Origin: Thermosulfurimonas marina
GTDB lineage: Bacteria > Desulfobacterota > Thermodesulfobacteria > Thermodesulfobacteriales > Thermodesulfobacteriaceae
Length of the DNA stretch: 64,000 bases
Assembly: GCF_012317585.1 (NCBI RefSeq)
Contig: NZ_CP042909.1
Coordinates: 1,426,001 to 1,490,000, forward strand
Direction of reading: 5' to 3'
Shown: positions 52,648 through 62,640 of the stretch, piece after piece
Position numbering within the stretch: the first letter of the stretch is position 1
How the letters are laid out: the number at the start of each line of letters is the position of its first letter
Notes under the pieces: generated by a model
Databases searched by the model: none
What the model was told of the DNA's origin: nothing
Seen by the model: the letters and a program-made list of their open reading frames with translations, nothing else
Position numbers and translations under genes: made by a program

Positions 52648-54651
52648 ATGCATCCTCCGGGCCATGCAGGACACGGGGTCCCTTCCGTTCCCCATGGGGC
52701 GCAGGGGGGTCATGCCGCCCACCACGCCCACATGATCGCCGATTTTCGGCGGCGCTTCTGGATTTCCCTGGCCCTTACCGTGCCCATTCTTTTCCTTTCT
52801 CCTATGCTGCGGAAGCTTTTGGGGCTTGGGGCCTTGGCTTTTCCGGGGGACCGTTATCTCCTCTTCGGACTGGCCAGCGTGGTCTACTTTTACGGAGGCT
52901 GGCCCTTCCTCCGGGGGCTCTTTTCCGAGGTGCAACAGCGCCGGCCGGGAATGATGACCCTCATCGCCGTGGCCATTACCACGGCCTATGGTTACAGTTC
53001 CTTGGTGACCTTTGTTCTTCCGGGAAAGGTCTTTTTCTGGGAACTGGCCACCCTAATTGATATCATGCTCCTGGGCCATTGGATCGAGATGCGCTCGGTT
53101 ATGGGGGCTTCCCGGGCCCTAGAGGAGTTGGCCCGGCTTATGCCCTCGGCGGCCCACCGGATCCTTTCCGAGGGGAGCACCGAAGAGGTGCCCCTGGAGG
53201 CTCTGAGGCCCGGAGATCGAGTCCTGGTCCGTCCCGGGGAGAAGATTCCCGCCGACGGGTGGGTGGTGGAGGGACGCAGTGCGGTAAATGAGGCCATGCT
53301 TACCGGGGAATCTCGCCCGGTGGAGAAGGGTCCTGGAGACGAGGTCATCGGCGGGGCCGTAAACGGCGAGGGCTCATTGGTGGTGGAGATCACCCGCACC
53401 GGGGCCGAGTCCTTCCTCTCGCAGGTGATCGAGTTGGTGCGGGAGGCCCAGGAGAGCAAGTCCCGCACCCAGGATCTGGCCAACCGGGCGGCCTTCTGGC
53501 TCACCCTGATCGCCCTCTCCGGCGGGGCTCTGACTTTTTTCGTCTGGGAGGTCTTTTTGAAAAAGGATCTGGCCTTTGCCCTAGAGCGCACGGTTACGGT
53601 GATGGTCATCACCTGCCCGCACGCCCTGGGGTTGGCCGTACCTCTGGTGGTGGCGGTCTCTACCGCCCTGGCAGCCAAACGAGGGCTGCTCATCCGCAAC
53701 CGGGCAGCCTTTGAACAGGCCCGCAACCTCACCGCGGTGGTCTTTGACAAGACCGGGACCCTCACCGAAGGTCGCTTCGGGGTCACCAAAGTGCTGGCCT
53801 GGGAGGGGCACAGTCCGGAGGAGATCCTGAGGCTTGCGGCCTCGGTGGAGACCCATTCGGAACATCCCATCGCCCGGGCCGTGGCCGAGGCCGCCTCGGA
53901 GACCTACCCCGTAGAGGATTTCCGGGCCCTTCCCGGGAGAGGGGCCCGGGCCCGGGTGGCCGAGCGGGAGGTCCTGGTGGTGAGCCCCGGTTATCTCCGG
54001 GAGGCCGGGCTTGAGCCCCCGGCCGAGGCCCTGGAGCTTTCGGAAAAGGGCCATACGGTGGTCTTTGTCCTGGTGGAGGGGAAGCTGTCCGGGGCCATCG
54101 CCCTTTCGGATCGGATACGTCCGGAATCCCGAGAGGCCATTTCCGCCCTCAAGGCCCGGGGCCTCAAGTGTTTCATGCTCACCGGGGACAACGCCCGGGT
54201 GGCCCGGGCCGTGTCTGAGGAGCTGGGGCTGGACGAGTTCTTCGCCGAGGTGCTCCCTCAGGAGAAGGCGGAAAAGATCCGGGAGGTCAAGGCCCGGGGC
54301 GAGATCGTGGCCATGACCGGCGACGGGGTGAACGACGCCCCGGCGCTGGCCGAGGCCCATGTGGGCATCGCCATCGGGGCTGGGACCGAGGTGGCCATCG
54401 AGACCGCGGACATTGTCTTGGTGCGTAACAATCCCCTGGATGTGGTCACCATTATCGATCTGGCCCGGGCCACCTACCGGAAGATGGTCCAAAATCTCTT
54501 CTGGGCCACGGGTTACAACGCGGTGGCCATCCCTCTGGCCGCAGGGGTTCTTTACCAATATGGGGTACTCCTGAGCCCGGCCATGGGGGCGGTCCTCATG
54601 TCCCTCAGCACGGTGATTGTGGCCCTTAACGCTCGGAGACTGAAAATCTAG
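52648..54651 (+). CDS. copB: CopB-type (P1B-3) copper-exporting P-type ATPase
   Basis: The pump exports copper (or silver) across the inner membrane. Its metal-binding membrane motif is CPH (TCPHALGLA), the mark of CopB-type pumps rather than the CPC of CopA. The N-terminus is His-rich ([10 protein letters not shown]... HAAHHAH) and no HMA domain is present. The phosphorylation motif [13 protein letters not shown] and [11 protein letters not shown] are intact. At 667 residues it is normal for the group. It has its own promoter and is followed by the multicopper oxidase. Confidence 0.95.
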
Positions 54652-54665
54652 TCCGGGAGGGAGTT

Positions 54666-56798
54666 ATGCGCCGTCTGGGAGGGATCCTTTTTCTTCTGTT
54701 GTGGGCCTCTTTGGTCCAGGCCCGGGTACGGGAATACCACCTGGTCTTGGAAGAGCGCCCGGTGACCATCGGCGGGCGTACTATTCGGGCCATGACCGTG
54801 AACGGCAAGATACCCGGGCCCACCCTTTACTTCGAGGAAGGAGACCTGGCCCGCATTCACGTAGAAAACCGTATGTCCGAGGACTCTTCCATTCATTGGC
54901 ACGGAGTCCTAGTTCCCCCAGAGATGGATGGGGTACCCTATGTGAGTTTTCCGCCCATCAAACCCGGAAGCACCTTCACTTACGAGTTTCCCATCCGCCA
55001 GGCGGGGACCTATTGGTACCATTCTCATACCGGTCTTCAGGAACAGCGGGGAGTTTACGGGGCCATCGTTGTCCGGCCCCGGAGGGAGCGTTTCCCTGTG
55101 GACCGGGACTATGTGGTGGTCCTTTCGGACTGGACCTATGAAGATCCTGAGGCTGTGTTGCGTACCCTTAAGGCCGGGCGGGAATGGTACAACATCAAGA
55201 AAGGCACCGCCCAGAGTCTTCTGGGGGCCGTGCGGCTGGGGATGCTCAAGCATTTTTTCAAACGAGAACTCTTACGGATGCCTCCCATGGACCTTTCGGA
55301 TATCGCCTACGATCATTTTCTGGTGAACGGAGGCCCGGAGCTGAGTCTACCGGCCCGTCCGGGGGAAAAGATCCGGCTCAGGATCATCAATGCCGCAGCA
55401 GGCACCAATTTTTATGTGGAGTTTGCCGGAGGCCCCATGACCATAGTGTCCGCCGATGGGCAGGAGGTAGAGCCGGTAAAGCTCAAACGATTTCTCATAG
55501 TGATCGCCGAGACCTATGACGTGATCGTAACCCTTCCCCGGGAAGGGGCCTTTGAATTTCGGGCCACGGCCCAGGACAATACCGGCCACGCTTCTTTGTG
55601 GCTGGGGGAGGGCCCGCGGGTGGCGGCCCCCACGATTCCTTCCCCTAATCTTTACCACACCATGGGGCGGGTGAGCTGGCGGAGCCTTCTGGCCTTGCGG
55701 CCGGAGGAGGCCATGGGGATGTCCGATGCGGCGGTGCGGGCCGGAAAGTTTGACCGTCCGGGGATGATGCCGGGCATGAAGATGGGACACACCCGAAGGT
55801 CCACCCCTCCCGATCTGGCCCTGGACGGGATGGATCCCCGCCGGCCGTGGCCGCCCTATCGTTTCCTGAGGGCCACGAAGCCCACGGCGCCCCCTCCGGG
55901 AAAACCCGTGCGGGTCCTGCGCCTTACCTTGGACGGAGATATGGAACGTTACGTCTGGTTTTTAGGCAAAAAGGCCCTTTCGGAAAGTGATGTTATTCGC
56001 ATCCGCAAAGGGGAGGTGGTGCGTTTAATATTGGTGAATCGCACCATGATGCACCACCCCATGCATCTTCACGGGCACTTTTTCCGGGTCCTAAGCGGCC
56101 AGGGGGCTTACGCCCCTTGGAAACACACCGTGGATGTGGCCCCCATGAGCACTACGGTGATCGAGTTTCCCGCCAATGAATCTGGCGACTGGTTTTTCCA
56201 CTGCCACATCCTTTATCACCTGAAAAGTGGCATGGCCCGGGTGGTCCATTATGAGGGTTACAGTCCCCCTCCGGCGGTGCGTAAGATAAGGCCCCTCCTT
56301 TACCAGGACCACTGGTACGCCTGGGCTGAAGGGACTCTGGCCACCAATATGAGCGAGGGCTACCTCAATCTTTCCAATACGCGCTGGAATCTACGGGCCG
56401 TCTGGGAGATCGGCTGGGAAGGGGTGCCGGAGACGGAAACGGAGTGGACCCTTCTGGTAGAAAGGTATTTTAACCGCTTTTTTACCGTGTTTGCCGGGGC
56501 GGATCTTCTAGACGACGGAGAAGACCTCAGTCGGGCCGTGATAGGATTTACCTATCTTTTGCCTTTGAATTTGCGGACCTATTTCTGGCTGGATAGCGAC
56601 GGGGGCACCCGGATGGGGGTAGAAAAGCACCTCCCTCTTACCGCCCGCCTTTTTCTAGAGGGTTACGCGCAGTATGACACTTGGGAGAAGTGGGAGGGAG
56701 AGGTAGGCCTGAGCTACGTCCTTTCCAAGAGGGCCAGTCTTCGGGCCTTCTGGCACTCGGACTATTTCTGGGGAGTCGGGCTCAACTTCTGGTTCTAA
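54666..56798 (+). CDS. Copper-resistance multicopper oxidase with C-terminal CopB-like beta-barrel extension
   Basis: Residues 1-19 are a signal peptide. The cupredoxin part (about 20-530) has all four copper-binding motifs: HWHG (77-80), YWYHSH (117-121 region), HPMHLHGHFF and HCHILYH, plus a Met-rich insert (MMPGMKMGH) typical of CopA/PcoA oxidases, which detoxify Cu(I). The last 155 or so residues (about 555-710) form short alternating aromatic strands and end in Phe (GVGLNFWF), resembling the barrel-forming CopB outer-membrane protein that is normally a separate gene. The fusion may place the oxidase at the outer membrane. It starts 15 bases after copB with a strong SD. Confidence 0.85.
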   Translation: MRRLGGILFLLLWASLVQARVREYHLVLEERPVTIGGRTIRAMTVNGKIPGPTLYFEEGDLARIHVENRMSEDSSIHWHGVLVPPEMDGVPYVSFPPIKPGSTFTYEFPIRQAGTYWYHSHTGLQEQRGVYGAIVVRPRRERFPVDRDYVVVLSDWTYEDPEAVLRTLKAGREWYNIKKGTAQSLLGAVRLGMLKHFFKRELLRMPPMDLSDIAYDHFLVNGGPELSLPARPGEKIRLRIINAAAGTNFYVEFAGGPMTIVSADGQEVEPVKLKRFLIVIAETYDVIVTLPREGAFEFRATAQDNTGHASLWLGEGPRVAAPTIPSPNLYHTMGRVSWRSLLALRPEEAMGMSDAAVRAGKFDRPGMMPGMKMGHTRRSTPPDLALDGMDPRRPWPPYRFLRATKPTAPPPGKPVRVLRLTLDGDMERYVWFLGKKALSESDVIRIRKGEVVRLILVNRTMMHHPMHLHGHFFRVLSGQGAYAPWKHTVDVAPMSTTVIEFPANESGDWFFHCHILYHLKSGMARVVHYEGYSPPPAVRKIRPLLYQDHWYAWAEGTLATNMSEGYLNLSNTRWNLRAVWEIGWEGVPETETEWTLLVERYFNRFFTVFAGADLLDDGEDLSRAVIGFTYLLPLNLRTYFWLDSDGGTRMGVEKHLPLTARLFLEGYAQYDTWEKWEGEVGLSYVLSKRASLRAFWHSDYFWGVGLNFWF

Positions 56799-59470: not shown

Positions 59471-60520
59471 ATGAGGATCGCCCAGGTGGCTCCGCTTTTC
59501 GAGGCGGTACCTCCCAAACTTTACGGGGGCACAGAGCGGGTGGTTTCCTGGCTTACGGAGGAGCTGGTGCGGCAGGGCCACGAAGTTACCCTCTTTGCCA
59601 GTGGGGACTCCCAGACCTCGGCCCGACTCGTCCCCTGTGCCCCTCAGGCCCTGCGCCTTTCCGGAGTCCGAGATCCTTTAGCCCCTCACGTACTTATGGT
59701 GGAGCGTGTCCTGCAGATGGCCCACGAGTTTGATATTATTCACTTTCACATAGATTACCTTCATCTGCCCCTCATGCGTCGGATGAAAAAACCCTATCTC
59801 ACCACCCTGCACGGGCGGCTGGATCTTCCGGAGATGTTTCCCTTTTACAAGGAATTTCGGGAGGCTCCCTTTGTGTCCATCTCTTATGCCCAACGCCGGC
59901 CTCTTCCCTTTCTGAATTGGGTGGGAACGGTCTATCACGGGCTTCCCCGGGATCTCTATCGGCCTTCCTATACGCCGGGAAAATATCTGGCTTTCCTAGG
60001 GCGTATTTCTCCGGAAAAACGTCCGGATCGGGCCATCGAGCTGGCCGAAAGGGTGGGGATTAAGCTCCTCATGGCGGCCAAGGTGGACCGGGCCGACCAG
60101 GATTACTTCAAAGAGGTGATTAAGCCCCGCCTGCGCAGCCCCTGGGTGGAATTCGTGGGGGAGATCAACGATGGGGAAAAACAGGAGTTTCTGGCCGGAG
60201 CCCTAGCCCTTCTCATGCTTATTGACTGGCCTGAACCCTTCGGGCTGGTCATGATCGAGGCCAACGCCTGTGGCACCCCGGTCATTGCCTGGCGCTGCGG
60301 GTCGGTCCCGGAGATCATTGAGCCAGGGAGGAACGGTTTCATCGTGGAGAGTATGGAGGAGGCCGAAAGGGCGGTGGCCGAAATAGAGCGGATTTCCCGC
60401 CGGCAGTGCCGCCGGGTCTTTGAGGAGAGGTTTACCGCCGAGCGTATGGCCCGGGACTACCTGGCCCTTTATGCCAGGCTGGCCTACGAGGAGGTGCCCC
60501 TTTGGCGCAAGGCCGCTTAA
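59471..60520 (+). CDS. GT4-family glycosyltransferase
   Basis: The 349-residue protein is a GT-B retaining glycosyltransferase. The N-terminal domain starts IAQVAPLFEAVPPKLYGGTERVV (split motif: VAPLFEAVPPKLYGG, TERVVSWL), and the C-terminal nucleotide-sugar site is FGLVMIEANACGTPVIA with the E-x7-E type pair. Donor and acceptor cannot be read. SD GGGAGGTGAGG precedes the ATG. Its end overlaps the following glycosidase gene by 19 bases, so the two act in one pathway, probably of storage or solute carbohydrate. Confidence 0.85.
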   Translation: MRIAQVAPLFEAVPPKLYGGTERVVSWLTEELVRQGHEVTLFASGDSQTSARLVPCAPQALRLSGVRDPLAPHVLMVERVLQMAHEFDIIHFHIDYLHLPLMRRMKKPYLTTLHGRLDLPEMFPFYKEFREAPFVSISYAQRRPLPFLNWVGTVYHGLPRDLYRPSYTPGKYLAFLGRISPEKRPDRAIELAERVGIKLLMAAKVDRADQDYFKEVIKPRLRSPWVEFVGEINDGEKQEFLAGALALLMLIDWPEPFGLVMIEANACGTPVIAWRCGSVPEIIEPGRNGFIVESMEEAERAVAEIERISRRQCRRVFEERFTAERMARDYLALYARLAYEEVPLWRKAA

Positions 60521-62640
60521 AATTCTATATCCTGGCTGCCAGTCCCGGGCTTTCTCCCCGCAACCTGACCTTCAAACACGGGGACACCTTCGCCCTTTTT
60601 AACGCCGAGGGAGATATTGTCCCCGGAGGCCTGGGAGAACTGGGGCTCTATCATCAGGGGACGCGTTTTCTTTCCCGTCTGGAACTCTTCTGCTGCGAAA
60701 CCAAGCCCTTTCTTCTTTCCTCTTCGCCTTCTCCGGATGGCCTTCTCATCCAGGTCAATCTCGCCAATCCGGATCTTCTGGCCGGGGATCTTTTTGTCCC
60801 CCGGGGGGCTCTCCACATAAAGCGTCTCAAGCTCCTCTATGAGGGGGTCTATTACGAGGAGCTGATCTTCACCAATTATGCGCTGGAGTCCTTAGAGGTC
60901 CCGGTAAGGATCCTCTGGGCGGCGGATTTTGCGGATATTTTTGAGGTGCGGGGGGTGAAACGGGCCCGGAGGGGCCATGTACTTCCTCCAGAGATTACCG
61001 AAGAGGGGGTGCGCATAAGGTACCACGGGCTTGACGGGGTGGACCGCAGGGTGGAGATCTTCTTTTCCGAAACCCCGGAGGTCTTGAGCCCGGAGGAGGC
61101 CCGCTTTTTTCTACGCCTTGCTCCCCGCCACAGAGAGCACCTGGTGCTTTCCGTGCGGTGTGTGGTGGGAGAGGAGGAGCCCGAAAGACATTCCTTCCGC
61201 AAGGCCCTCTTTCTGCGCCGTTCGGAACGCAAAGAACTCCTCAAGGCCAGCGTGCGGGTGGAGTCTTCCAATGAGCACTTTAACCGCTGGCTGGAACGTT
61301 CGGAATACGATCTTTTTATGATGCTTACCCGCACCCCTTACGGACTCTATCCCTATGCCGGCATACCCTGGTTTAGCACTGTTTTCGGACGCGACGGGCT
61401 CATCGTGGGGCTTCAGACCTTGTGGTTCAACCCGGAGATCGCGCGGGGTGTGCTGGAGGTCCTGGCGGCCACCCAGGCCACGGAGCTCGATCCGGTGCGG
61501 GATGCCGAGCCCGGGAAAATCCTCCACGAGATGCGCCTTTCGGAGATGGCCGCTACCGGAGAAGTTCCCTTCGGCCGTTATTATGGTTCCGTGGACGCCA
61601 CCCTTCTTTTTATGATTCTGGCCGGGGCTTATTACGAGCGCACCCAGGATCTGGACTTCATGCGCCGTCTCTGGCCGCACCTGGAACTGGCCTTTGAGTG
61701 GATGAAAACCTACGGGGATCTCGACGGTGACGGCCTGGTGGAGTATCAGCCCTCGGAAGAGGGACTGGTAAACAAGGGCTGGAAGGACTCTCACGACAGC
61801 GTCTTTCATGCCGACGGCACCTTTCCCAAGCCACCCATAGCCCTGGTAGAGGTCCAGGGCTACGCCTACCGGGCCTGTTTGGAGATGGCCCGCCTTTCCC
61901 GGGCCTTGGGAAAGCACGATCTCGTGCTCCCTTTCCTTTCCCGGGCGGAGGATCTGCGGGAAAAGATCCGCAAGGCCTTCCTCCAGGGGGATTTCCCGGC
62001 TCTGGCCCTGGATGGGGCCAAAAGACCTTGCCTGGTGCGCACCTCCAATCCCGGCCACCTCCTTTTCGGAGAGGCTCTTTCGGAAAGCGAGGCGGTGGCC
62101 CTTTCCCGGGCCCTTTTTTCTCCGGATCTCTTTTCCGGCTGGGGTATTCGGACCCTGGGAAGAGGAGAAGTCCTTTATAACCCGGTCTCTTATCATAACG
62201 GTTCCGTCTGGCCTCACGACAATGCCCTTATCGCCCAAGGGTTCGACCGATATGGGCTCAAGGAGGCCGTGGAGAGGGTCTTTCGGGGGCTCTTTGAGGC
62301 CAGCCATTATTTTCCGAATCATCGGCTCCCGGAACTCTTTTGTGGCTTTTCTCGAAGGGCGGAGGAGGGGCCGGTCCAATATCCCGTGGCCTGTAGCCCC
62401 CAGGCCTGGGCCGCCGGGGCGGTTTTCATGCTGGTGGCCGCGGCCCTGGGCTTGCGTTTTACTTCCCGGGGTCTAGCCTTCGTGAAGCCCCGTCTTCCGG
62501 AATTTCTTTCCTGGTTGCGCTTTAAGGGTTTACGGGTAGGGGAGCACAGCGTGGACCTCGAGTTCCTGCGCTACGGACATGATGTGGTGGTCAATGTGTT
62601 GCGGAAGCCGAAGGCGGTGGAGATTCTGGTGGTGAAGTAG
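60502..62640 (+). CDS. Amylo-alpha-1,6-glucosidase-like glycogen debranching/GH family enzyme
   Basis: The 712-residue protein has the debranching-type N-terminal domain (DIVPGGLGELGLYHQGTRFLS) and a C-terminal (alpha/alpha)6-barrel, with GIPWFSTVFGRDGLIVGLQTLW, EYQPSEEGLVNKGWKDSHD and YNPVSYHNGSVWPHDNALIA as likely catalytic-site regions. Related enzymes remove alpha-1,6 branches from glycogen or act on related glucosides. TTG at 60502 is used, with SD GAGGAG before it. No signal peptide. The 3' end overlaps lpxB by 50 bases, the largest convergent overlap in the window. Confidence 0.85.
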   Translation: MAQGRLKFYILAASPGLSPRNLTFKHGDTFALFNAEGDIVPGGLGELGLYHQGTRFLSRLELFCCETKPFLLSSSPSPDGLLIQVNLANPDLLAGDLFVPRGALHIKRLKLLYEGVYYEELIFTNYALESLEVPVRILWAADFADIFEVRGVKRARRGHVLPPEITEEGVRIRYHGLDGVDRRVEIFFSETPEVLSPEEARFFLRLAPRHREHLVLSVRCVVGEEEPERHSFRKALFLRRSERKELLKASVRVESSNEHFNRWLERSEYDLFMMLTRTPYGLYPYAGIPWFSTVFGRDGLIVGLQTLWFNPEIARGVLEVLAATQATELDPVRDAEPGKILHEMRLSEMAATGEVPFGRYYGSVDATLLFMILAGAYYERTQDLDFMRRLWPHLELAFEWMKTYGDLDGDGLVEYQPSEEGLVNKGWKDSHDSVFHADGTFPKPPIALVEVQGYAYRACLEMARLSRALGKHDLVLPFLSRAEDLREKIRKAFLQGDFPALALDGAKRPCLVRTSNPGHLLFGEALSESEAVALSRALFSPDLFSGWGIRTLGRGEVLYNPVSYHNGSVWPHDNALIAQGFDRYGLKEAVERVFRGLFEASHYFPNHRLPELFCGFSRRAEEGPVQYPVACSPQAWAAGAVFMLVAAALGLRFTSRGLAFVKPRLPEFLSWLRFKGLRVGEHSVDLEFLRYGHDVVVNVLRKPKAVEILVVK

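Follow-up and report, generated by a model that had tools for sequence, protein, structure and literature searches.

A copper-resistance-type multicopper oxidase continuous with a predicted PcoB-like outer-membrane barrel

Within a window of 64,000 nucleotides, the whole stretch of DNA that was analysed, one uninterrupted frame encodes a protein of 710 residues in which a predicted export signal, a multicopper oxidase, a short linker and a C-terminal tail follow one another (Table 1). Residues 33-528 are covered by the Pfam models Cu-oxidase_3 (PF07732), Cu-oxidase (PF00394) and Cu-oxidase_2 (PF07731), and the best NCBIfam model is TIGR01480, the copper-resistance oxidase, at 429.9 bits (E 1.4e-128), which lies under the curated cut-off of 478.95; three cupredoxin domains and type 1, 2 and 3 copper ligands, which mark that type, are present. 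Foldseek matches of the full-length AlphaFold2 model are laccases, ascorbate oxidase and CueO. A first-pass annotation of this DNA had read the gene as a complete CopA/PcoA-type oxidase with all of its copper motifs, and this agrees with the three Pfam domains and with the four motifs, which are intact here and kept in every one of 50 non-redundant fused relatives. The Met-rich loop between oxidase domains, modelled at a pLDDT below 50 over residues 372-379, is far longer and rich in Met and His in many aligned relatives. The same annotation had the oxidase continuing in frame into the tail, a continuation that recurs in tens of other genomes. An assembly or frameshift artefact was also considered and is ruled out by the same continuous frame in relatives from several phyla.

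Table 1. Features of the oxidase-barrel locus; positions are those of the window.
Feature	Residues	Position	Strand	Basis
Copper P1B-type ATPase, CPH motif, His-rich N-terminus		52648..54651	+	TIGR01511, 633 bits (cut-off 397)
Fused gene	710 aa	54666-56798	+	single ORF without internal stop
Predicted signal peptide, Sec type (MRRLGGILFLLLWASLVQA)	1-19	54666..54722	+	sequence; model helix 2-16
Multicopper oxidase, CopA/PcoA-type, three-domain	20-529	54723..56252	+	Pfam, TIGR01480, AlphaFold2, Foldseek
Copper motif HWHG	77-80	54894..54905	+	sequence
Copper motif WYHSH	117-121	55014..55028	+	sequence
Met-rich disordered loop between oxidase domains	about 351-381	55716..55808	+	alignment, AlphaFold2
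Copper motif HHPMHLHGHFF	463-473	56052..56084	+	sequence
Copper motif HCHILYHLKSGM (contains HCHILYHL), type-1 Cys/His/Met	512-523	56199..56234	+	sequence
Linker with short helix	530-550	56253..56315	+	helix 536-546 (AlphaFold2)
Predicted PcoB/CopB-like 12-stranded outer-membrane beta-barrel	551-710	56316..56795	+	AlphaFold2, 7PGE match, hhalign

The gene for a copper P1B-type ATPase ends 15 bases 5' of the oxidase-barrel gene, and this pair is kept in three relatives with a gap of 11-14 bases; related ATPases also occur near the fused gene in several Bacteroidota. The CPH motif of the ATPase is the kind found in the Cu(II)-linked P1B-3 group. Two ABC transporter genes stand further upstream, and they were not found next to the pair in L217, the sole relative with enough flank. 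A promoter scan found nothing. Downstream, at 59471-62640 (+), a glycosyltransferase gene is followed by a long ORF (60502-62640, +) that overlaps it by a few bases and resembles glycogen-debranching glucosidases by eye. Elsewhere the genome encodes a CusA-type (HME-RND) pump, three TatC genes and BamA, and, besides the presumably O2-using fused oxidase, a cytochrome bd oxidase outside the window (G000:C1:548008-549279). The source organism is probably a thermophile, and close relatives of the genome include Thermodesulfatator, which is generally anaerobic.

For residues 530-710 neither Pfam nor NCBIfam offers a matching model. A full-length AlphaFold2 model, computed from an alignment of 39 relatives, reaches a mean pLDDT of 89.4 and a pTM of 0.89 and places 12 strands within residues 551-709. 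Because the Foldseek list of this model was filled by laccases, the tail was folded separately, which yielded the identical 12 strands, short and joined by minimal loops, in 160 residues (pLDDT 93.7, pTM 0.80). The top Foldseek match of the tail among all solved structures is PcoB of E. coli (7PGE, E 6.2e-6), which also ranks highest in VIA-align (Z 17.0, 161 residues aligned), followed by other 12-strand barrels, among them VhGalP (15.6) and OmpLA (14.7). When the tail profile is aligned by hhalign to true CopB proteins, the two run in register over 112 columns (probability 92.7%, E 4e-7), and in the reverse search the tail profile recovers separate CopB proteins. The likeness to CopB, usually a separate gene, that the first-pass annotation had proposed is thus upheld by the profiles and by weak matches of PF05275 (CopB) in 11 of 39 fused proteins, but not by a domain hit in the 710-residue protein itself, which PF05275 does not match at the Pfam cut-off of 27 bits. 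A phmmer search of PDB sequences with the tail sequence alone gave no match, and the sole match of the tail profile there was a designed 12-strand barrel. Hydrophobic/polar alternation in the tail strands is pronounced family-wide (16.9, where shuffled sequences average 8.3 with sd 1.7; 0 of 5000 shuffles) and marginal in the single sequence (p 0.05). The annotation's description of the tail as about 155 residues of aromatic, alternating strands ending in Phe likewise fits the modelled 160 residues and the C-terminal Phe. A soluble or cupredoxin-like tail is ruled out by the AlphaFold2 models, and a tail without a hydrophobic outward face was not found. As predicted, then, the tail is a complete 12-strand outer-membrane barrel of the PcoB type, which argues for the earlier suggestion that the oxidase is tethered at the outer membrane by a barrel of its own. 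The companion suggestion, one barrel shared by several chains that each give a few strands, has in its favour just the shortness of the tail at 160 residues; since a single chain supplies all 12 strands, at a pLDDT of 94 and equal in number to PcoB, such sharing is unneeded and, already disfavoured, is scarcely credible. With regard to orientation, turn lengths vary among fused proteins on the predicted extracellular side (mean sd 1.66, with several turns varying) against 0.12 on the periplasmic side, and it is this concentration of length variation that places the oxidase in the periplasm, while its predicted placement relative to the barrel has the full-length pTM as its one measure.

Matches to the tail profile occur in 17 of 395 Desulfobacterota, 44 of 247 Bacteroidota and 17 of 194 Verrucomicrobiota genomes, nearly all in frames of at least 700 residues. 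Among the Pseudomonadota the fused form is present in 2 of 319 genomes, where six further matches are weak and partial and lie in shorter, CopB-like frames. A fused gene is also carried by the plasmid pILYOP02 of Ilyobacter polytropus (Fusobacteriota), typed as conjugative, where it lies at 6001-8028 of L211, with genes for a cation transporter and for periplasmic heavy-metal sensors as neighbours. Such a fusion readily escapes notice, because the barrel has no Pfam or NCBIfam model and the fused members of Ilyobacter and Hymenobacter are publicly annotated just as "multicopper oxidase domain-containing protein". One Verrucomicrobiota genome (G395) holds three fused copies together with a separate oxidase and CopB (L207, L160, L176, L203), and in another genome (G1061, L178) the barrel part is divided over two frames, perhaps as a decayed or frameshifted copy of a fused gene. 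A search with PF05275 found no separate CopB in the genome of the 710-residue protein; above the cut-off, separate CopB is encoded in 7 of 395 Desulfobacterota genomes, none of which carries the fusion. This lack of overlap in Desulfobacterota (17 and 7 of 395) agrees with replacement of one form by the other, and is not significant at such numbers. In a tree of the oxidase part, which took in 51 fused and 32 split proteins, the Legionella fusions not among them, the two kinds fall on opposite sides of one branch (SH-aLRT 99), with one change in total. The fusion is thus widespread, and the fused proteins form one clade that is separate from, and sister to, the split CopA and CopB type. The single clade, the one change and the spread over several phyla indicate that the fusion is old and stable; whether the change was a gain or a loss of the fusion is not proven, though outgroup oxidases are unfused.

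The two clades differ also in their export signals. In a regex comparison, the twin-arginine motif was absent from the signal of the 710-residue protein. Among the 45 fused proteins first compared the pattern appeared in one, in an over-extended start, and among 124 fused frames, truncated and repeated copies included, it appeared in two, both times within the mature protein. By comparison, 62 of 69 split oxidases carry it, or 62 of the 64 that are N-terminally complete; five of the seven without it miss the N-terminus, and L082 and L207 are real exceptions. The latter, the split oxidase of G395, has a Sec-type signal and, like L082, takes a basal position within the split clade. Within the Desulfobacterota the motif is found in 7 of 7 CopA-type split oxidases. 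Since a single tree branch separates fused from split proteins, this Sec/Tat contrast amounts to one event and is confounded with ancestry. Its simplest reading is that a barrel needs unfolded export, so that the fusion would use Sec and the oxidase would have to receive its copper in the periplasm.

PcoA and PcoB (CopA and CopB) share with the fused protein the oxidase type, the copper motifs, the 12-strand fold and the order of oxidase then barrel, but they are two chains where it is one, and its barrel, unlike PcoB, is reduced to 160 residues and has short loops. Separate CopB/PcoB has a long, disordered, His/Met-rich N-terminus, in place of which the fusion has a linker of about 20 residues (CopB alignment; PMC12509749); in PcoB this disordered segment stabilises PcoA and has been proposed to act in docking and Cu(II) transfer (PMC12509749). 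The fused proteins further combine a Sec signal, a sister-clade oxidase and the loss, in most, of the PcoB acid pair D97-E207, whereas the split oxidases are nearly all of the Tat type. Fusions of PcoA and PcoB have been mentioned for five Legionella species, with an architecture that, going by a one-sentence description, matches that of the 710-residue protein (PMC3548706). For a multicopper oxidase of Bizionia argentinensis (G2EDV6), residues 611-809 are described as porin-like with some similarity to PcoB (PMC11213822), which would make it a protein of the same architecture from the Bacteroidota, among whose genomes fused proteins are frequent in this survey; the accessible portion of that account contains neither a survey of how the fusion is distributed nor an analysis of it as a family. 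No further description was found in the literature searched, most subscription papers being outside its coverage. The architecture is therefore already known, but barely described, and what is new, to judge from these searches, is how widely it occurs, the grouping of the fused proteins in a single clade, the predicted completeness of the 12-strand barrel and the Sec/Tat contrast. Cyc2 of iron oxidisers resembles the fusion in having a redox domain ahead of an outer-membrane barrel, and differs in that it is not a copper protein, its redox domain being a heme domain for which a role as plug of the barrel has been proposed (PMC5566968). A fused porin-oxidase might, in the manner of porin-cytochrome complexes, help to oxidise iron or manganese outside the cell or to transfer electrons, and porin-oxidase pairs of the PcoAB families have been hypothesised, without experiment, to be electron-transfer systems (PMC5566968). 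However, the oxidase belongs to the copper-resistance type, a copper ATPase adjoins the gene in several genomes, and the neighbours on the Ilyobacter plasmid are heavy-metal sensors and a cation transporter, all of which make this use of the fusion improbable.

These observations are best accommodated, with fair though incomplete confidence, by a single-chain protein of the PcoA-PcoB type that is exported by Sec, oxidises Cu(I) in the periplasm and has its outer-membrane barrel as both tether and Cu(II) route. The precursor would pass unfolded through Sec, and BamA would insert the C-terminal 160 residues in the outer membrane, where they would form the 12-strand barrel, while the N-terminal oxidase would fold and acquire copper in the periplasm, directly under the periplasmic mouth of the barrel. 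The upstream P1B ATPase may deliver Cu(I) to the periplasm, the oxidase would convert it to Cu(II), and the barrel, besides tethering the oxidase, may offer Cu(II) a path across the outer membrane. It is from homologues that we infer Cu(I) oxidation, the outer-membrane location and the direction of copper flow for the fused protein, and this direction is disputed even for separate PcoB, through which copper moves inward according to one study (PMC9210255) and outward, through an efflux channel, according to work on Caulobacter (PMC12509749). Conduction through the fused barrel and hand-over from oxidase to barrel are putative steps. The 12 strands of PcoB are antiparallel, and both of its termini lie in the periplasm; it conducts Cu2+, which its pair D97-E207 binds (PMC9210255). 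By an approximate mapping at 16% identity, this pair corresponds to T557 and E653 of the 710-residue protein, and acids occupy the two positions together in just 2 of 39 fused proteins. The second PcoB acid pair, E130-E223, corresponds to E581 and Q669, and here about 23 of the 39 are acidic at both positions; Glu581 and Glu593 hardly vary. Positions of the barrel that face the lumen show no greater conservation than those that face the lipid (p 0.43). With D97-E207 mostly lost and the lumen no more conserved, Cu2+ conduction by the fused barrel is left open.

A serious rival, to our minds unlikely, is that the barrel is a mere anchor whose plugged lumen conducts no copper, detoxification being achieved by oxidation alone and efflux by the CusA-type pump. 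The same loss of the copper-binding pair and the same even conservation speak for it, as do the short strands and minimal loops, the conserved Arg/Lys by the periplasmic turns, which could shut the mouth through salt bridges, and the presence of a CusA-like HME-RND pump in the genome; however, 12 strands exceed the needs of an anchor, Glu581 and Glu593 are retained almost without exception, and the nearest structural relative, PcoB, does conduct Cu2+ (PMC9210255). The tether with a Cu(II) route remains the preferred reading, and it may, quite tentatively, be taken further: the fused clade would be a copper oxidase and exporter in one, self-contained at the outer membrane, whose type-1 site, over the periplasmic mouth of the channel, would hand Cu(II) directly into the pore, and in which recourse to Sec would have moved copper loading from the cytoplasm (Tat) to the periplasm.

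How PcoA and PcoB cooperate is an open question (context in PMC12509749). A widespread natural fusion that does without the disordered segment is strong indirect evidence that PcoA and PcoB act as a unit, and a single chain allows oxidation, outer-membrane insertion and transport to be studied jointly.
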